Positions 50,221 through 60,206 of a stretch of DNA of 64,000 nucleotides are shown in pieces. The stretch covers positions 1 through 64,000 of the forward strand of contig CAMWQM010000003.1 of NCBI GenBank assembly GCA_947176375.1, written 5' to 3'. The notes beneath the pieces were generated by a model. The model did no database searches, was not told where the DNA came from, and was given only the letters and a program-made list of their open reading frames with translations. Made by a program: the position numbers and the translations under genes. The stretch's first letter is position 1. The number at the start of each line of letters is the position of its first letter. The DNA is from an uncultured Helicobacteraceae bacterium. Its GTDB lineage: Bacteria; Campylobacterota; Campylobacteria; Campylobacterales; Helicobacteraceae.

Positions 50221-52401
50221 ATGAATTCTACTTTATATAATGGATATAGCGGGATTAAAACTCATCAATTTGGGTTAGATTCTGTATCAAATAATATTGC
50301 AAATATTAATACTACTGGTTATCGTGCGAATCTGCCTGAATTTAAAAGCATATTTAGTAATGCACTAAATTCTACGAACCCAAATTCTCCTGTTTCAAGT
50401 GATATGAATTATGGTTCTACTATCGCTTCAAATGCTATTTCAAATGTCGATGGAAGCTATAAAGAAAGTGATGAGGAGTTAAGCATAGCATATGCAGGTA
50501 AGGGCTGGTTTGTTGTCGGTGATAATGAAAATAATGCCTTTAATGCAGAGGAACCTAGTAATGGAGTGTATTTTACTCGTGATGGTTCTTTTTCAAGGGA
50601 TGCAGAGGGTTATATAGTCAATTCCGCTGGTTATTATATGCTAGGAGTTGATTTGGGCAAAATTCAAAATGGAGTTTTCATTAGCAATCCGCAAAATGAC
50701 GAGGAGAATCTAGCAGTTAGTGAGGTAAAACCCTTGAGGATTCCACAAGATTTATATTATGGACCAACTGAGAGCACAAAAGTAGATATTAGTGTGAATC
50801 TAAATAACAATCAAGGTGATATAGGGACTTTTAACTTTTTTTTGGATAATAATGCAATAATTGAGGAAAAAATCCTAAATCAAGATATAAATTCTTTAGT
50901 AGTAAATAATGAAAATATCAATGCGAAAGCTTATAATGACGCAATAATTACTATCAACAATGGCAAAGAAAACAAAACTTACAATTTTAAATATGGAGAT
51001 TTTAGAACCATAGGCGAATTGAAAGATTTGATAAAAGAGCAGACAGGCTTAACCTTGGATTTTGTGCGTGATAGTAATGGAGCTATTAATAAAAGTTTGA
51101 TATTAGAGCTAAAAAACGATTCTCCTAGTGATGTTGAAGTTAGTCTTGAGGGGAAATTATTTTCACAGCTTGGCTTAAGCGGGACAAAAGAGCTAGGTTT
51201 ACTAAAAGTGCAGGATTTTAACCAGAATAAAAATTACAATCCAAATGACTTAGTCAAACTAAATGGGGTGATTTTTAAGAGACTTGAAACTAGTGGAAGC
51301 ACCTCCCCACTAGAGGATATCAACTTTTGGCAAATGCTAGACTCCTCATCTGTGCCTACTTTTAACGAGGAAGGGGTTTATAATATAAATGATTTGGTTA
51401 ATTTTGAGGGCAGAATCTATCAAAAAGTAAGTAATGAGAGTGAGAATCCAAATGCTGAAAACTCATCTTGGAGGTTGCTTGGTGATAATATCACTATGCA
51501 AATAGAACAATTTAATAGCAATAATTCCTATCCTAGAAATGCTTTGGTGTATTTTAATAACCATATTTATCAAAAGATTGGTGATTTGAATGGAGGGAAT
51601 CCTGATATTGATTCTATGAATTGGAAGATTTTAGATAGTGATAAATTTTCTAGTAATAAGCTTGTAGTTGCAAATTACAAAACTACTACCGAAATTTTCA
51701 ATGATAGTGGCGATAAAATGGTGGTGATTTCTGAATATGTGTTGAGTGATAATTCTGGTGATACACAAACTTGGAATGTAAAAAGCCAAATCTTTGATAA
51801 AGATGGGCTAAATCCGCTTGGCGAAGCAGTGGAACACACAATAACCTTTGATAGTAATGGTAATGTTCTTAATGGTGAGCCTATAACTTTAGACTATGGC
51901 TCAAAAAATATATCTTATAGCGTTGCAGGTGGTGCAACAAAGAAAAGCACAAATCATTCTTATATAGATTCTGCAATATTGGAGATTAGCAAAGATGGGA
52001 CACAAAAAGGTGAGTTAGTGAATATTGGTGTGGATAATAATGGGCTTATAAATCTATCATTTTCAAATGGAATTACCGAGACAATGGGGCGTGTGGGTGT
52101 GGTCGCATTTGTGAACGATAAAGGCTTACAAAAGGTAGGTGGAAATCTCTTTGAAATGAGTGCGATTAGTAGAGATGGAGATGATGCAGTTATCGCAAGT
52201 GGGAATCCTCTAATTGGCTGGGATAATAAAGGGGATTTGCGATTTGGGCAAGTTTTACATAAATATTTAGAGACTAGCAATGTCAATCCAGCTGATGCAA
52301 TGACTGACTTAATAGTGTTTCAAAGGGGATATTCAATGAATGCAAAGGCTTTCACAACAGGCGATGATTTAATCAAAGAGGCAATTAATTTAAAGAGATG
52401 A
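50221..52401 (+). CDS. flgE: Flagellar hook protein FlgE, first copy
   Basis: A 726-residue hook-family protein. The N-terminal D0 helix and rod motif are MNSTLYNGYSGIKTHQFGLDSVSNNIANINTTGYRAN. A central region of about 500 residues carries three repeated carbohydrate-binding-like segments (NPNDLVKLNGVIFKRLE, NINDLVNFEGRIYQKV, PRNALVYFNNHIYQKIG, each ending in a WxxL pattern). The C-terminal D0 helix is VNPADAMTDLIVFQRGYSMNAKAFTTGDDLIKEAINLKR. It is in the operon with fliK and flgD, like HP0908 of H. pylori. With a second FlgE at 53057, this copy may be an accessory or specialised hook subunit. AGGAG lies before the ATG. Confidence 0.88.
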   Translation: MNSTLYNGYSGIKTHQFGLDSVSNNIANINTTGYRANLPEFKSIFSNALNSTNPNSPVSSDMNYGSTIASNAISNVDGSYKESDEELSIAYAGKGWFVVGDNENNAFNAEEPSNGVYFTRDGSFSRDAEGYIVNSAGYYMLGVDLGKIQNGVFISNPQNDEENLAVSEVKPLRIPQDLYYGPTESTKVDISVNLNNNQGDIGTFNFFLDNNAIIEEKILNQDINSLVVNNENINAKAYNDAIITINNGKENKTYNFKYGDFRTIGELKDLIKEQTGLTLDFVRDSNGAINKSLILELKNDSPSDVEVSLEGKLFSQLGLSGTKELGLLKVQDFNQNKNYNPNDLVKLNGVIFKRLETSGSTSPLEDINFWQMLDSSSVPTFNEEGVYNINDLVNFEGRIYQKVSNESENPNAENSSWRLLGDNITMQIEQFNSNNSYPRNALVYFNNHIYQKIGDLNGGNPDIDSMNWKILDSDKFSSNKLVVANYKTTTEIFNDSGDKMVVISEYVLSDNSGDTQTWNVKSQIFDKDGLNPLGEAVEHTITFDSNGNVLNGEPITLDYGSKNISYSVAGGATKKSTNHSYIDSAILEISKDGTQKGELVNIGVDNNGLINLSFSNGITETMGRVGVVAFVNDKGLQKVGGNLFEMSAISRDGDDAVIASGNPLIGWDNKGDLRFGQVLHKYLETSNVNPADAMTDLIVFQRGYSMNAKAFTTGDDLIKEAINLKR

Positions 52402-52462: not shown

Positions 52463-52580
52463 TTTAGCTACAAAATCCACATTATCTCTTTTTTTATTGC
52501 AAGATTGTTTGTATTAGCAAAATTGTGGTAATCTAGAATCTTATAAGTTAAATCTTTTTTGTAATTAGAAACTATTTTAT
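52463..52580 (+). repeat. Dispersed intergenic repeat, copy 1
   Basis: About 118 bp shared with 57561-57679 (inverted) and 59945-60040 (direct). A 47-bp core, from ATTAGCAAAATTGTGG to GTTAAATCTTTTT, is identical in all three. It contains small inverted pairs such as TTTGC/GCAAA (in copies 2 and 3) and the palindrome CTTATAAG. Confidence 0.9.
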
Positions 52581-52995
52581 CTTACTTATTTGTTAAATTC
52601 TTCACCTAAATGTTTGTAATGACAAAGAGAATAGCAGATGATAAGAGAGTGTTTGTCACCATTTTGGAAATTTCGTAAGAAACCGAAGAATCCATTTTCC
52701 ACCATATTGTTTCTCTTTCATTATGCTTTAAAGTTGCAATGATAAATATAGTTACTAGATTTTCCATTTTGCTATATTTAAGGTTGCAAATACAACCAAA
52801 CTTTTTATAAAATTAGAATCCAAATCTAGTTTTTTAGATTCTATATCTCAAAAATATTTAATTTAAATTTCATTATGAAAAATTTAATATCTAATGAAAA
52901 TTGAAAGACCAAATAAATTTAGATTAAATAATAATTCAAATTTTAAAGTTTAGATTTAAAATAAATATTTTTAGATTCTAATAATTTTATATATT

Positions 52996-53013
52996 TTGGA
53001 ATATTTTTTGCTT
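52996..53013 (+). promoter_or_regulatory. Sigma-54 promoter upstream of the second flgE
   Basis: TTGGAATATTTTTTGCTT has GG (52998-52999) and GC (53010-53011) exactly 10 bases apart, close to the TTGGAAC-N-TTGCTT form of this phylum. It lies 44 bp before the ATG at 53057. Confidence 0.8.
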
Positions 53014-53056
53014 TAAACTGAAAATTAAAAAATATTAATAGCAAGAAAGGATTTGA

Positions 53057-55207
53057 ATGTTAAGGTCGTTATGGTCTGGTGTGAGCGGAATGCAAGCTCA
53101 TCAAATAGCTCTAGATGTAGAGAGTAATAATATCTCAAATGTCAATACAGTAGGATTTAAATACTCAAGGGCTTCATTTGTAGATATGTTAAGTCAAATT
53201 AAGCAAATTGCAGCCTCTCCCTATAAAAATGGACTTGGAGGGCAAAATGATTATTCAATAGGACTTGGTGTAGGTGTGGAAGCGACAACAAAAGTTTTTT
53301 CACAAGGAAACACACAAAATACTGATATAAAAACGGATTTAGCAATAGAGGGTGATGGATTCTTCATAGTTAGCCCAGATAGAGGAATAACTCATAATTA
53401 CACAAGAAATGGAGAGTTTCTATTTGATGCAAATGGGAATCTCGTAAATACAGGTGGATACATCGTGCAAGGGTGGATTCGTGGTGAGTTAGAGAATGTC
53501 GAGTATATGACTGAAGATGAGTTTTTTAAAGTCGATCACACAGGACCGATTAGAAATATTCAAATTGACCCTGCTATGGTTATGCCTGCTAAATCCACTA
53601 GCTCTATTTCACTTCGTGCAAATCTTAATGCAGGTAGAAAAGCTGACCAAATGGTTTCGATATCCGCACTAGATTCCTCTACAAAAACAGAAGTAAATCC
53701 AGAGATTCCATTATATGATTCTACAAATGATTTAAGGCAAATACCCTATGATATGGGAGTACTTTTTAATGCTGATGGAGATGCTTTGGCATTAAAGGAA
53801 AATCAAGGCATTTGGATTAGCTACCAAATAGCGCAAATGAGACAAGCAGTTGTGCCAACAGCTGATACTAGCACTATCGGGATTAATGGCGTTGATATTT
53901 CTTTTGTAAATGACTCTAATGTAACAGGTATTAGTTCTCTAATAGCAGCTCAAAATGCAATCAATGCTCAAAGCGAGATAACAGGCGTAAATGCCTATGT
54001 AGATAATGGTATGCTTAGAATTGAAAATCAAAACAATAGAGATGGTGATGGCAAAAATAAAAATATACTAATTACAAAAGGTGGAACAGGGGCACTAAAA
54101 AACTTCAAAGAGGGCGATAGCGTTATTACTGCATTTTCATATCAATATACAAAAGCAGAAGATGCAGATTCTACAAGTGGGCAATTTAGGACAACAGAGG
54201 ATTTGAGAGCATTAATACAGCAAGATGCAAATTTAGTAAAAAATCCACAAATTACCTATGCAGATAGCACCGCTAGTGTGCTTGTGCGTGTCAATGACTA
54301 TGGAATGTTTGAGCTAGAGAACAAGAATGATGGCAATGATGTGCAAAATAATATGCGCATTAGCGTTAGCAGCTTTTATTCTGAAAATGTTACAAATAAT
54401 GTGCTTTTTAAAGAGGCTATGAATGGGCTTGCCACAACTGCATTAGTAGAGGGTGGGAATCCTACTAGCACAGGAGTATTTGGAATAGCAACACACGCTA
54501 CAAGTGTCGATGTAGTCGATAGTCTAGGCTCACAGCATACAATAAGATTCGAGTTTTATAAAACAGGTGATAGTGAGTGGAGTTTTAGAGCAATACTTCC
54601 AGAACCAGCACAATTCATCGGTGGCTCACCAACAAGACCAAATATTTTTGAGGGTGGTAGAGCGGCATTTAACTCTGATGGTAGTTTATCGGGTATGAAT
54701 CCTCCAGTATTACAATTTGACCCTAAAAATGGCTCAAGTGCACCACAAAGACTTGAGCTTTCATTTGGTGATAATGGAACTTTTGGCGGACTAACAAGCG
54801 TAGATAGAATCTCTGAAACTTATACAATTTCTCAAAATGGATATAGAGCAGGAGATTTAGTAGATATTAGATTTGATGCAAATGGAACGCTTCTCGGAGC
54901 ATTTAGTAATGGAAAGTCTCTTGCACTTGCACAAGTGGCACTTGCTAATTTTTCAAATAATGCAGGACTTCAAGCGGAAGGCGGAAATATATTTAGCCAA
55001 AGTGGAAACTCGGGTGACCCTATCGTTGGAGCACCAAATACAGGACGAAGAGGTGGAGTAAGTGGCTCAAAGCTAGAAATGAGTAATGTTGATTTAAGTA
55101 GAGCGCTAACACAGCTAATCGTGGTGCAAAGAGGCTTTCAAGCAAACTCAAAGGCAGTTACCACATCTGACCAGATTCTAAATACTTTATTAGGATTAAA
55201 GCAGTAA
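53057..55207 (+). CDS. flgE: Flagellar hook protein FlgE, second copy (probable major hook subunit)
   Basis: A 716-residue hook protein, near the 718 residues of H. pylori FlgE (HP0870). The D0 motif is MLRSLWSGVSGMQAHQIALDVESNNISNVNTVGFKYSRASF. Domain D1/D2 segments include DGFFIVSPDRGITHNYTRNGEFLFDANGNLVNTGGY and VDVVDSLGSQHTIRFEFYK. The C-terminal helix is LSRALTQLIVVQRGFQANSKAVTTSDQILNTLLGLKQ. It has its own sigma-54 promoter, so FlgR should control it. It is followed 3 bp later by a Maf glycosyltransferase gene. AAAGGA is seven bases before the ATG. Confidence 0.94.
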   Translation: MLRSLWSGVSGMQAHQIALDVESNNISNVNTVGFKYSRASFVDMLSQIKQIAASPYKNGLGGQNDYSIGLGVGVEATTKVFSQGNTQNTDIKTDLAIEGDGFFIVSPDRGITHNYTRNGEFLFDANGNLVNTGGYIVQGWIRGELENVEYMTEDEFFKVDHTGPIRNIQIDPAMVMPAKSTSSISLRANLNAGRKADQMVSISALDSSTKTEVNPEIPLYDSTNDLRQIPYDMGVLFNADGDALALKENQGIWISYQIAQMRQAVVPTADTSTIGINGVDISFVNDSNVTGISSLIAAQNAINAQSEITGVNAYVDNGMLRIENQNNRDGDGKNKNILITKGGTGALKNFKEGDSVITAFSYQYTKAEDADSTSGQFRTTEDLRALIQQDANLVKNPQITYADSTASVLVRVNDYGMFELENKNDGNDVQNNMRISVSSFYSENVTNNVLFKEAMNGLATTALVEGGNPTSTGVFGIATHATSVDVVDSLGSQHTIRFEFYKTGDSEWSFRAILPEPAQFIGGSPTRPNIFEGGRAAFNSDGSLSGMNPPVLQFDPKNGSSAPQRLELSFGDNGTFGGLTSVDRISETYTISQNGYRAGDLVDIRFDANGTLLGAFSNGKSLALAQVALANFSNNAGLQAEGGNIFSQSGNSGDPIVGAPNTGRRGGVSGSKLEMSNVDLSRALTQLIVVQRGFQANSKAVTTSDQILNTLLGLKQ

Positions 55208-55210
55208 TTT

Positions 55211-57463
55211 GTGGGTATATTAAAATCTTTACAAAAATGCGATGAGAGTGCTATAACCAAAAGAATGCTAGAAAATATAGCATTCTTTAGCACACAAAAT
55301 AAAAAAATTGTAAATGCCCTAAAGCTAGCACTAGAGGGCAAAAATCAAAGATATAAGCTACTTTTTAGCCCACAAGATATAAATATCATTGATTTAGTTA
55401 ATAAAAAATATCTCTATCCAAAAAACACCTTTTTAAATATTTCATATAATCTTGCTTTAAATCCACTAAATAACGATAAATGGAGTATTTATGCGAATAA
55501 TTTAAAACTAGCAAAAATAGAAGGTGATAGACTAAAAATCACTACAAATGCGATAAATCAAATGGTGGATTATACTTATAAGCAGAATTTAGCACAAAAT
55601 CTAGCCTTGATAGAATCTTCATCAATAAACTTTGATAAATCTAATGCTAATCAATCAAATACACTAAATTTACAAAACCCTAAAACTCTAAATTTAGATT
55701 TCACACTGCTAGATTTAAAAATATCTTTAGCAAATAATGTAGAATCTAGCAAAAAAGTAGAATCTAAAAATAATATAGCAGATTCTACTTTTAGTCATAC
55801 AGATTCTAATGTGCCAAAAAAGCTAGAATCTGGAGAGTTTGAAAATCTTGCTTCTTTAAAACATACAAAACAAAAGCAAGAACAGCCCAAATTAGAGGAA
55901 ACAGAGCAGGTATGGCAAGTAGAGCAAGATCTATTAGGGCAAGCAGCGCAGGCAAAATCTTTAGGACAATTTCATTTGCCTTATCTTTTCTTACCACAGG
56001 TAAATATTTTTGGGCTTTTTGGTGGGCTATTTTTGGAGCTTTTGGTGGAAAGCGGATATAAATTTCACTCGCTTTTAATTTATGAGGAAGATTTGGAGCT
56101 ATTTGCCATCTCTTGCTATTTTATAGATTTTAGGAAGCTTTTTTTAGCCACGAAAGAAAAATCTTGTTATATTTTTATAGAAAATATGCTTGATAAGGCA
56201 CTTTTAAATCACTATTTTTATAGTAAAAAAGTTACAAATAATTTCTTGCGTCTCACTTTGAATATATTTCAGTCTCCAAAAATAGAGCAAATGAAAAATC
56301 TTGTTAGTGAAGCTTACAAAGTGAATTCAAGGGGTTGGGGAAGCTTTGAAGATGAAATTATCGGTTTGAAAAATACTCTAAAAAATATTAAAGAAAGTAA
56401 GATTTTACAATTTAAAAATAAACTAGATATTCCTATTTGCGTAGTTGGGAGTGGTCCTAGCTTGGAATTTAATTTGGAATTTATTTCTAAAAATCAAAAT
56501 AAAATGCTAATTTTTAGTTGTGGCACTGCGCTAAAGATTTTAAAAAAGCATAATATTAAAATTGATTTTCAAATAGAAATAGAGCGGACAGACTATCTTT
56601 CCTCAGTATTAGAGGAATCTAATCTAGGCGACACACCGCTTTTGTGCGCTTCGCTGGTCGATAATAAAATTATTAAACTTGCCAAAACCTCCGTTTTATT
56701 CCTGCGTGGAGGAAGTGCTAGTTCTTATATTTTTGATAGCAAGGTTATTGAGTTTTGCTCACCATTCGTGGGAAATGCGGGATTTAGCCTAGCTTGTAAT
56801 TTAAGTGATACTATCATTTTGTGTGGAATGGACTGCGGATATATCAAAGGTAAGTCAAAGCACTCAAGCGGCTCTTACTATGGAGATGAGGTGATTGAGA
56901 TTCCAAATGATTGCTTCAAAGTAGCTAGTAATTGCACTTTTGAAGTTTATAGTAACTCTATTTTCTCTTTAAGTAGGGAATCTTTTGAATTAGCCCTAAA
57001 ATTTTATAAGCCAAAAAATGTATATAATTTAAGTTTTGGTGCTAGAATTGAGGGTGCTAAATTTATTCAGTCTCTAGAGATTTCAAATTTTAATAAAGAT
57101 GATTTTCAAAATAAATTATTTAAAAATGCTCTAAGTTTAGCTCCAAGAGCCAATTTAATAAATGGTATCAAAAAATATATTAATAATTTAGCTCTAATGT
57201 TAGAGTGCGATATTAAAAGCAAACAGGAGCTTTTTAGCTTTATTGATAAAATTAGTGCGTTTCTTGCTCAAAATAGCTTTAAGATTCCACATATAGCAAT
57301 CCTATTTGAAGGTTCCCTATCACATTTGCTTCAAAATATGCTAATTTGTGCCATTTGCATAAATAGTAATGATATACAAATGCACTGCAAAGCTTACTTA
57401 GATATTATACAAAAAGCTTTGAGGGATTTTGAAAAGGAATGTGAGGAATTAAATATAATTTAG
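55211..57463 (+). CDS. Motility accessory factor (Maf) flagellin glycosyltransferase
   Basis: 750 residues of the Maf/DUF115 family, which transfer nonulosonic acids such as pseudaminic acid to flagellin. The central domain (about 395-570) has ICVVGSGPSLEFNLEFI, the nucleotide-sugar-binding pattern, IEIERTDYLSSVLEE, and FVGNAGFSLACNLSDTIILCGMDCGYIKGKSKHSSGSYYGDEV. Residues about 130-250 are a disordered insert with many ES and DS pairs coded by GAATCT and GATTCT. The start is GTG, 3 bp after the flgE stop and without a clear ribosome site, so coupling is likely. Linkage to flgE rather than flagellin genes is unusual. The pair is bounded by inverted copies of the dispersed repeat. Confidence 0.9.
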   Translation: MGILKSLQKCDESAITKRMLENIAFFSTQNKKIVNALKLALEGKNQRYKLLFSPQDINIIDLVNKKYLYPKNTFLNISYNLALNPLNNDKWSIYANNLKLAKIEGDRLKITTNAINQMVDYTYKQNLAQNLALIESSSINFDKSNANQSNTLNLQNPKTLNLDFTLLDLKISLANNVESSKKVESKNNIADSTFSHTDSNVPKKLESGEFENLASLKHTKQKQEQPKLEETEQVWQVEQDLLGQAAQAKSLGQFHLPYLFLPQVNIFGLFGGLFLELLVESGYKFHSLLIYEEDLELFAISCYFIDFRKLFLATKEKSCYIFIENMLDKALLNHYFYSKKVTNNFLRLTLNIFQSPKIEQMKNLVSEAYKVNSRGWGSFEDEIIGLKNTLKNIKESKILQFKNKLDIPICVVGSGPSLEFNLEFISKNQNKMLIFSCGTALKILKKHNIKIDFQIEIERTDYLSSVLEESNLGDTPLLCASLVDNKIIKLAKTSVLFLRGGSASSYIFDSKVIEFCSPFVGNAGFSLACNLSDTIILCGMDCGYIKGKSKHSSGSYYGDEVIEIPNDCFKVASNCTFEVYSNSIFSLSRESFELALKFYKPKNVYNLSFGARIEGAKFIQSLEISNFNKDDFQNKLFKNALSLAPRANLINGIKKYINNLALMLECDIKSKQELFSFIDKISAFLAQNSFKIPHIAILFEGSLSHLLQNMLICAICINSNDIQMHCKAYLDIIQKALRDFEKECEELNII

Positions 57464-57802
57464 CTTCTTAAATTTTATAAAAGAATAAGTAGGCTTTTCT
57501 CTCATTTTGTTTAATTTTTTATTAATCATTATAGGAACTAAAAAGATAAACAATCTAGTAATAAAATAGTTTTTAATTACAAAAAAAAGATTTAACTTAT
57601 AAGATTCTAGATTACCACAATTTTGCTAATGCAAACAATCTTGCAATAAAAAAGAGATGATATGGATTTTGCAGCTAAAGCTTCATATTATATTTAGGTT
57701 TCTGCTTTAAAGCAATCCACCCAAATATATTTATTTTAGATATTGAGAAAAGTTTATTTCACTAATATTTTATTATTACAAGATTTACAAAAGCATACAA
57801 AC
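57464..57802. other. Intergenic region with repeat copy 2
   Basis: 339 bp between the convergent maf and sodC genes. It is largely occupied by the inverted dispersed repeat (57561-57679). No gene is seen. Confidence 0.5.
57561..57679 (-). repeat. Dispersed intergenic repeat, copy 2 (inverted)
   Basis: Reverse complement of copy 1 with a few differences (longer A-run at 57581, single-base changes in the outer part). It faces copy 1 across flgE-maf and copy 3 across sodC-porin. Confidence 0.9.
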
Positions 57803-58360
57803 TTATTTTATCACACCACAAGCCATTCTCGCACCACCACCGCCAAGTGCAGCTGGTTTATCGTGGTGATTATCTCCGCCTATATGTATCATTAGAGCTT
57901 TGTTTTTTATCTCATCTAGTTTGTTGAGTTTTGGAGCAAGGATAGGATAGTTTGCATTACCATCTTTATCTACATAGATTGCAGGTAGGTCGCCTTTATG
58001 TCCACTATTATTCCATGGGAAAGAGTGATTATTAGTATTTTGTGGATCCCAGTGTCCTCCTGCTTTCATTCCTAGCCCTTTATCTGTCGCTCCACAATCT
58101 GCATTTTGATGAATATGAAAGCCGTGAATCCCGCTGTCTAACCCACTAAGATTTGGATAAAATACTATTCCATAGTCGCTCTCCACTGCTATTATCTCGC
58201 CTATTTGTTTATTTCCACTATTAGTAAGTAAATCCATTTTAATTACTACTTTATTATCCTCTAGCAAAGGATTGTAAATATCGCTATTTATATCACTCTT
58301 TGCCATATTTGCAAATGCAAAACTAGCTAAAACTATACTTATTCCTAGTATTTTTTTCAT
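57803..58360 (-). CDS. sodC: Periplasmic Cu/Zn superoxide dismutase
   Basis: Converts superoxide to oxygen and hydrogen peroxide outside the inner membrane. 185 residues with signal peptide MKKILGISIVLASFAFANMA. The copper and zinc ligands are visible: GFHIHQNADCG (first His pair), GGHWDPQNTNNH, GHKGDLPAIYVDKDG (Zn His and Asp), and IHIGGDNHHDKPAALGGGGARMACGVI (last Cu His region and disulfide Cys). All are in the expected order of the bacterial SodC fold. AAGGAG precedes the ATG. It is divergent from the porin gene. Confidence 0.95.
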   Translation of the reverse strand: MKKILGISIVLASFAFANMAKSDINSDIYNPLLEDNKVVIKMDLLTNSGNKQIGEIIAVESDYGIVFYPNLSGLDSGIHGFHIHQNADCGATDKGLGMKAGGHWDPQNTNNHSFPWNNSGHKGDLPAIYVDKDGNANYPILAPKLNKLDEIKNKALMIHIGGDNHHDKPAALGGGGARMACGVIK

Positions 58361-58531
58361 TTTATTCTCCTTAAATTTGGTTTGTGAAAATATATTATAT
58401 TGTAAAAGTGTATATTTTTTTGTAAAATATTAAAATAAATTATTGATTAAATCTCATTTTTATGCTTTAATTCTATAATTTCTTAAAATGGCTTAAGAAA
58501 TTAAAATTCCATAAAATTAAGGAGAAGCAAA

Positions 58532-59692
58532 ATGAGGAAAGTTTTAGTAAGTATTGTTGCAGCTAGTGCATTAGCTAGTTCATTATCTGCAATAGAAGTT
58601 TATAAAGAGGGTAACAATTTTGTTGATATTTATGGTGATGCAAGAGCAATAGCTGGCTATGGGCATACAATGACTTTTGGTAAAGTAGGTGGTGTTTCAA
58701 GTGATGCTACAATAAATAGTAATATTTTATTTGGTGTGCAAGGAAACTCAAGACTAGGAGTAAAGTTTAGATATAATAATTTCATAGGTGATGTGCAACT
58801 AGGTGCAAATGAGCAGACACTATATAATAGTGGTGCTAATAATATGGGATTTAGATATCTATATGCTGGATATGATTTTGGCGATGCTGGAGTATTTGTA
58901 GTAGGTAAAATGGATACTCCAATGGTAAATAACTTCTCAAGCAGCGTATTTGATACTGATGGAGGGATGAATGGTTTTGGTGGATATGCTACTGGAAGCA
59001 GAAGAATCCAAGTGCAATATAAACTACCAATAGGCTTAACTCTAGCAATAATAGAAAATGATGTAGCAAATAATATGTATTCAGTGGCAATAAAAGATGG
59101 ACAACCAAATTTTACGAACTTTACTACAATTCCTAGAGTTGCACTTAGCTATGAGTATAAGAGTAAGGGAACTAGAGCTAGAATAGCTGCTACTTATGCA
59201 CGAGCGGAAAGTTTTAGCACTACACGAGCAAAAGATGCTGCTGCAGTGAATCTAGGAATTAAGCAAGATATTAGTGAGGCATTCTATGTATCTGGATTAC
59301 TTTCTTATGGATTTAATGGACATCTAACAGGTGAGCAAAGCATTGCAAATCCAAATGTAGGAAATGGTATAGGCTCTGCTATGAATGCAGGCTCTACTAG
59401 TTATGCTGATATGGGCGCTACATCACATATTTATGCTGGATTTATAGAGCTAGGTGGAAAATTAACAGAAGACTTTGGAATAGCTGTTAGTGGTGGCTAT
59501 CAATTAGCTGCTTTCAAAGGTGATAATCATCATTCTTATGGTGCATTTATTCAGCTACCTTATAAATTTAATAATAACTTCTCTATAGTTCCACATATAG
59601 GATATTATGGAGTTTCTACATATACAAATAGTGATAGTAACACTAATATTGGTGGAATCTTTGCAATGGCTCAGCTAAAAGTTAACTTCTAA
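58532..59692 (+). CDS. Outer-membrane porin
   Basis: 386 residues with signal peptide MRKVLVSIVAASALASSLSA. The mature part begins IEVYKEGNNFVDIYGDARAIAGYG and has repeated amphipathic strands (FRYLYAGYDFGDAGVFVVGKMDTPM, VQYKLPIGLTLAIIEND, ISEAFYVSGLLSYGFNG). It ends in FAMAQLKVNF with a terminal Phe. The layout is that of a 16-18-strand general porin, as in the Helicobacter and Campylobacter major outer-membrane proteins. AAGGAG is eight bases before the ATG, and a strong terminator follows, which fits high expression. The specificity is unknown. Confidence 0.88.
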   Translation: MRKVLVSIVAASALASSLSAIEVYKEGNNFVDIYGDARAIAGYGHTMTFGKVGGVSSDATINSNILFGVQGNSRLGVKFRYNNFIGDVQLGANEQTLYNSGANNMGFRYLYAGYDFGDAGVFVVGKMDTPMVNNFSSSVFDTDGGMNGFGGYATGSRRIQVQYKLPIGLTLAIIENDVANNMYSVAIKDGQPNFTNFTTIPRVALSYEYKSKGTRARIAATYARAESFSTTRAKDAAAVNLGIKQDISEAFYVSGLLSYGFNGHLTGEQSIANPNVGNGIGSAMNAGSTSYADMGATSHIYAGFIELGGKLTEDFGIAVSGGYQLAAFKGDNHHSYGAFIQLPYKFNNNFSIVPHIGYYGVSTYTNSDSNTNIGGIFAMAQLKVNF

Positions 59693-59705
59693 TTAAGATT
59701 CCATA

Positions 59706-59737
59706 AATTCTCTTTTTTAAAAAGGGAATTATTTTTT
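59706..59737 (+). terminator. Rho-independent terminator of the porin gene
   Basis: A stem from AATTCTCTTTTT and AAAAAGGGAATT (59706-59730), with one G-T pair, is followed by ATTTTTT. It is 13 bp after the stop codon. Confidence 0.75.
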
Positions 59738-59740
59738 AAG

Positions 59741-59762
59741 ATAAAGCTTTTAAAAGCTTTAT
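59741..59762. repeat. Perfect 22-bp palindrome
   Basis: 11-bp arms (ATAAAGCTTTT and its complement) with no spacer, directly after the porin terminator. It could extend the termination structure or serve as a protein-binding site. Confidence 0.7.
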
Positions 59763-59944
59763 CAACCTCTACAAATAAATAAATTCTTTTAATCAATAAT
59801 CTACATATTAAGCATCAATCATTATTAGCCAAGTAATTTGTGTTTTGTAAAATCATTATCTTTTTAAGTAATCTATTAAATTTATAAATTCTAGAATCTT
59901 AATAATCAGTTTTATAAAAGTTAGAATCTAAAATCCTACAAACT

Positions 59945-60040
59945 AATCTCTCTTTTCATTGCAAGATTTTGCATTAGCAAAATTGTGGTAATCTAGAATC
60001 TTATAAGTTAAATCTTTTTGTAATTAAGAAACTATTTTAT
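59945..60040 (+). repeat. Dispersed intergenic repeat, copy 3
   Basis: Same orientation as copy 1. It lacks about 20 bp at the left end but shares the 47-bp core and the ACTATTTTAT end. A weaker match to copy 1 continues to about 60080. Confidence 0.9.
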
Positions 60041-60206
60041 TTTAGATTCTTTATCTAAAGGTTTAAAATAACAAAATAGAAGTTGTTTTTTTAATTATGC
60101 TGTGGATTGTAAATTATTATGATAAATTCTTTATACTTGGTCTTAAAATATTGTTCTTTAATATTGGTTTAGTTAATTAATATTTTTATGTTAATGATTT
60201 AGATTT

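Follow-up and report, generated by a model that had tools for sequence, protein, structure and literature searches.

An intergenic three-copy repeat in a Helicobacteraceae genome as a probable local triplicate built on a worn REP-like palindrome

Short bacterial palindromes carrying a CGTC or TGTC tag are the described repeats that lie closest to the locus considered here. As presented in the main text of Di Nocera et al. 2013 (PMC3733652), these CGTC REPs consist of the tag, a stem of 8-9 bp that opens with A-T pairs, a loop of 4-5 nt and a tail close to CCA; Rickettsia RPE-4/RPE-6 and Neisseria dRS3 belong to them, and they are found in five phyla, Sulfurovum among their hosts. According to the same text they lie near the 3' ends of genes and are sometimes intragenic (Rickettsia RPE-4/6), and no dedicated transposase is assigned to them, their spread without one being stated there as an open question. 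Helicobacter is not named in that main text. Our literature search for REPs in Helicobacter, with most subscription papers outside it, found no description, and a search with the letters of the motif returned primers or unrelated sequence only. A different route to local repeats in these bacteria is duplication associated with inversion (DDAI), which is described in PMC8963470 and cited for Helicobacter in PMC4671568.

The window, a stretch of 64,000 nucleotides from an uncultured Helicobacteraceae bacterium, holds an intergenic repeat in three copies (Table 1). Direct and inverted repeat searches and alignment found a 47-bp block, ATTAGCAAAATTGTGGTAATCTAGAATCTTATAAGTTAAATCTTTTT, that is identical in copies 1, 2 and 3, and a 38-base probe from this core gave three exact matches with none expected in shuffles. 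The sequence-only reading had described three copies in the orientations +, - and + with a mismatch-free core and no open frame, and this stands with slightly different edges; no ORF of at least 60 aa covers any of the copies. Copies 1 and 2 can be aligned over 132 bp; they have 32 bp of left flank in common, and copies 1 and 3 share a further ~48 bp on the right (0/500 shuffles as good in either case). The homology of copy 1 with copy 3 extends to about 52640, and that of copy 3, with copy 1 only, runs an extra ~40 bp to about 60084. Outside the core, copies 2 and 3 have little in common and share neither of the flank homologies of copy 1. The 132-bp and ~109-bp homologies between copies stand at about 90%.

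Table 1. Positions of the repeat copies, their hairpins and the exact core within the window
Feature	Position	Strand	Remark
Copy 1	52463..52594	+	62 bp past the stop of the flgD-linked flgE paralogue
Copy 1, REP-like hairpin	52496..52532	+	2-nt insertion breaks inner stem
Copy 1, 47-bp exact core	52513..52559	+	
Copy 2	57548..57679	-	between convergent maf and sodC; same orientation as sodC
Copy 2, REP-like hairpin	57611..57647	-	
Copy 2, 47-bp exact core	57584..57630	-	
Copy 3	about 59936..60044	+	between convergent porin and tetR-like genes
Copy 3, REP-like hairpin	59958..59992	+	inner stem intact, 8/8 pairs; nearest to family consensus
Copy 3, 47-bp exact core	59973..60019	+	

Within each copy lies a hairpin, ATTGCAAG...GCATTAGC...TTGTGGTAAT. 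When 121 genomes of the family were searched, matches in other genera fell mainly within the hairpin of the query (about its bases 27-79); these places read TTGTCATTGCGAGATTTTGCATTAGCAAAATCGTGGCAATCCATAGAATC. The window copies read ATTGCAAGAT(TG)TTTG[CT]ATTAGCAAAATTGTGGTAATCTAGAATC and differ from this family hairpin by G-to-A and C-to-T changes; their hairpin is a C-to-T-decayed form of a dispersed palindrome, TGTC-ATTGCGAG-(stem)-CGTGGCAAT-C[C/T]A. A search pattern for the family, ATTGCRAGN{5,30}GYGGYAAT, occurs in 57 of the 121 genomes and reaches 289 copies at most (the richest include G057 with 289, G078 with 150 and G054 with 137), single matches, above all in genus g2, being partly due to chance; the same pattern read backwards gave zero to three matches. 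The inner arms also covary. In 59 chosen copies, 279 of 291 cells are paired as against 58% with the arms dealt anew, and in 104 distinct hits taken without selection the figures are 87% and 55%. Together, the pattern counts and the arm covariation show a real dispersed palindrome family, of which the window copies are worn relatives.

In the genome of the bacterium itself the pattern has four matches, namely the three window copies and one on contig C1. The latter belongs to a facing pair, CGTCATTGCGAGG...CGAAGCAATCC and TGTCATTGCGAG-AGGC-GTTA-GCCT-CGTGGCAATCT, which is undecayed, carries CGTC/TGTC tags and lies inside a mod gene. This pair (L171, 2545-2647) is in frame within an uninterrupted 932-aa N6/N4 DNA-methylase (mod-like) ORF, and similar repeats occur inside or adjoining restriction-modification genes of G055 (L031) and G062 (L034, L037). 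Dozens to hundreds of ATTGCGAG...CGTGGCAAT palindromes were seen in each of G053, G054, G057, G078, G079, G116 and G118, most of which have no match to the transposase family PF01797.

The hairpin accounts for only part of what was copied. No relative is known for the 3' half of the unit (GAATCTTATAAGTTAAATC...ACTATTTTA), which makes what was copied more than a REP. The earlier suggestion of a small non-autonomous element is correct in part: the unit contains a decayed hairpin whose family is common among related genomes, but as a 118-bp unit it has no copies elsewhere. Imperfect inverted ends visible in the fold of copy 1, TTTAGCTACAAAA and TTTTGTAATTAGA, were rejected as transposon ends, being absent from copy 3 and lying in AT-rich DNA.

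Further copies of the full repeat were sought widely. The genome is a draft of 1,799,172 bases in 37 contigs, rated 99.99% complete, and blastn found the three window copies as its only strong matches, although collapsed copies at contig ends could stay hidden in such an assembly. The next-best match, 24 bp on contig C34, is of low complexity and was dismissed as a fourth copy. Contig C34 itself (L004, 8.6 kb) encodes an MFS-like transporter and an Rgg-like regulator, along with numerous tiny ORFs that are preceded by strong AGGAGG sites; by eye it is Firmicute-like and may be assembly contamination. In the four congeners, G001 (Helicobacter sp. 16-1353), G002, G003 (RGIG5532) and G004 (BRZ_QM bin61), no copy was found at E<=0.001, and the phage, plasmid and viral collections contained none. 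A search for relics in congener intergenic regions and at the donor ends, on the aspC and response-regulator sides, gave AT-rich noise only. Following the core through the draft and the congeners, as had been proposed, thus added no copy to the three in the window.

How the three copies arose can be approached through their common derived bases. Every copy has the same three transitions in its hairpin (CGAG to CAAG, CGTGG to TGTGG and GGCAAT to GGTAAT), and this shared decay points to one decayed element that was multiplied, not to three insertions; all three copies accordingly descend from a single decayed one. The inner stem of copies 1 and 2 carries a common 2-nt insertion and that of copy 3 is intact, so that either the source did not yet have the insertion or copy 3 has lost it. 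The flank homologies center on copy 1, which is therefore the copy that best represents the source. The simplest history would involve two copying events that differed in their ends, their order being read from three sequences only. The copying itself, as judged from the aligned bases, is established by the shared derived positions and the flank pattern.

We therefore favor, with a probability of roughly 0.7, the explanation that a REP-like palindrome decayed and that a stretch of ~180 bp containing it was then copied locally twice, the copies now being inert. Comparison shows that a palindrome of the TGTC/CGTC-ATTGCGAG-stem-CGTGGCAAT-C[C/T]A family lay in this intergenic DNA and was worn by transitions. 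The ~180-bp stretch that includes the worn hairpin, for which copy 1 is the best representative, would then have given rise to two more copies within a few kb, an inverted one (copy 2) and a direct one (copy 3), presumably by short-range template switching or by duplication at a rearrangement, to which the hairpin may have contributed. The present-day copies are most likely inert DNA flanking the 3' ends of genes; any contribution to the transcripts would be no more than a weak hairpin in the 3' UTRs of flgE, sodC and the porin gene. One observation does not sit easily with simple neutral decay of the copies. The core is more conserved than the flanks (mismatches 2/116 versus 25/173, p about 1e-4), a hint of selection or gene conversion. 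Such a difference could result either from weak selection or from gene conversion confined to the stretch of highest similarity.

The surroundings of the copies bear on how the copying may have happened. In G002, G003 and G004 the flgE2-maf pair has aspC on one side and a response-regulator gene on the other, bearing out the idea that it is a newcomer at its present site; the two flanking genes are found on contigs C8 and C4, respectively, in the genome under study. In all four congeners the gene after the flgD-linked flgE is a convergent one of the Gly_transporter family. In G001, sodC follows aroE, and a pair of ATP-grasp-like and tetR-like genes lies about 4 kb from flgE. The porin-like gene beside copy 3 (58532-59692) has no match in the four congeners; it also has no Pfam match at E<=0.001. 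The flgD-linked FlgE paralogue (50221-52401) has, within its variable middle part, a match to the CBM_5_12 carbohydrate-binding module above the Pfam cut-off, as does the G001 orthologue, the matches in the other congeners being only weak.

Duplication of the DDAI type known from H. pylori, in which staggered breaks at the ends of an inversion leave inverted copies of the breakpoint at both ends, is a possible but less probable mechanism for the copying, and one compatible with the REP content. A pair of such inversions would account for the alternating layout. The flgE2-maf block lies between the inverted copies 1 and 2 and is displaced relative to G002-G004; the genes that flank it there are on two other contigs in the genome under study, and the adjacency of sodC and aroE in G001 fits as well. 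As in H. pylori, inverted duplicate DNA flanks a moved block. However, the donor ends on the aspC and response-regulator sides carry no repeat copy, there are three copies instead of two, and most non-operonic boundaries are broken without any such repeat.

This last point could be quantified by placing the window genes from 10 to 63 kb in G001, G002 and G004, which showed the genome to be shuffled at most operon boundaries. Among the non-operonic boundaries without a repeat between 39.5 and 63.4 kb, 6 of 8 are broken relative to G001 (39536/41344, 41344/42489, 42489/43270, 43974/44918, 46365/47343 and 60907/62182) and two are kept (43270/43974 and 60207/60907). Both testable repeat-bearing boundaries are broken, and the third involves the porin gene absent from the congeners. 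Because repeat-free boundaries are broken equally often, the repeat does not explain gene order, and neither the notion of a rearrangement hot spot, for which there is no enrichment, nor the earlier proposal that the repeat accounts for the placement of flgE was retained. The sequence-only reading had held that the absence of further copies together with a fixed order in all relatives would reduce the repeat to a local duplication; no further copies were found in the draft or the four congeners, but the order around the copies differs from that in the four congeners.

The same layout, inverted, inverted and direct, would in principle permit flgE2-maf or sodC-porin to invert or both to be deleted, as had been pointed out, and homologies of this length and identity could recombine. 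That the copies act as recombination sites of a switch resembling phase variation is nevertheless very improbable, and no evidence for it was found. No recombinase gene was found among the neighbors, the cassette genes each keep their own upstream region so that inversion would switch no promoter, the assembly has a single gene order, and the differences from the congeners are translocations and not flipped cassettes. The repeat is most likely neither an invertible switch nor an active mobile element.

A role in RNA deserves consideration given that every copy is downstream of a gene (flgE, sodC or the porin gene) and on that gene's coding strand, that the core is conserved above its flanks, and that the + strand forms a hairpin with G-U pairs. 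The copies might then be three siblings of a small RNA family or 3'-UTR hairpins, acting in trans or stabilizing the upstream mRNA, with the core as the functional part. We regard this as improbable. The location 3' of genes on the coding strand is the usual position of REPs too, according to the main text of PMC3733652. Fold z-scores on the repeat strand are 0.1, 0.3 and -1.7 for copies 1, 2 and 3, those of copies 1 and 2 being no better than shuffles, and the repeat has no Rfam match at the gathering score, where the window yields three tRNAs only. Promoter-like sites are not above shuffles, the one terminator-like site lies outside the repeats and does not fit the hairpin, and the repeat is not conserved in congeners; the structured RNA suggested earlier thus finds no support in matches, folds or terminators. 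It is even less likely that selection maintains the core as a common 3'-end element (the hairpin and the tract that follows it) co-opted from a dead repeat. If so, it would tie the flgE, sodC and porin messages to one RNA-binding factor or RNase in a small local regulon.

Taken as a whole, the locus is a real but ordinary local triplicate on a worn palindromic repeat, and neither a switch nor a regulatory RNA is supported. The triplet is minor, and the wider palindrome family is the more useful result. About half of the species genomes searched contain this Helicobacteraceae palindrome with its covarying inner stem, in one to nearly 300 copies; most of the repeat-rich genomes have no matching Y1 transposase, and some palindromes lie in frame within DNA-methylase genes. 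Ranging from near-empty to very rich, these genomes are a good set for testing how CGTC palindromes spread.

Compared with GTAG REPs and REPINs, the Helicobacteraceae palindromes are likewise short, imperfect, dispersed, often paired and near 3' gene ends, but their tag is another one. No Y1/RAYT transposase (PF01797) match was found in the genome under study or the listed congeners, which sets it apart from REPIN/RAYT systems and agrees with CGTC REPs; within the family, Y1 genes occur mostly in a genus poor in the palindrome, unlike in GTAG REP/RAYT systems. The family resembles CGTC REPs in its CGTC/TGTC tag, stem start AT and CCA/CTA tail, its intergenic and in-frame intragenic sites and its facing pairs. 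It differs in having a variable inner stem and hairpins of 23-41 nt with internal mismatches in place of a clean stem of 8-9 bp. In the window copies, the position of the unpaired CGTC/TGTC/CCTC tag reads TTTT, TTTT and TTTC, whereas other family members, including the mod pair, carry CGTC/TGTC. All three keep A-T pairs at stem positions 1 and 2 (ATTGC...G[CT]AAT), ends that in the wider family are required by the search pattern itself, and all have a short unpaired tail, CTA, with CCA or CTA in relatives. Their hairpins of 35-37 nt with an internal mismatch depart from the 8-9 bp stem and 4-5 nt loop, their number is low (three copies besides the one mod pair), and about 70 bp of unrelated extra sequence was copied along. 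The window copies are therefore best filed as decayed relatives of a CGTC REP variant rather than as members of it.
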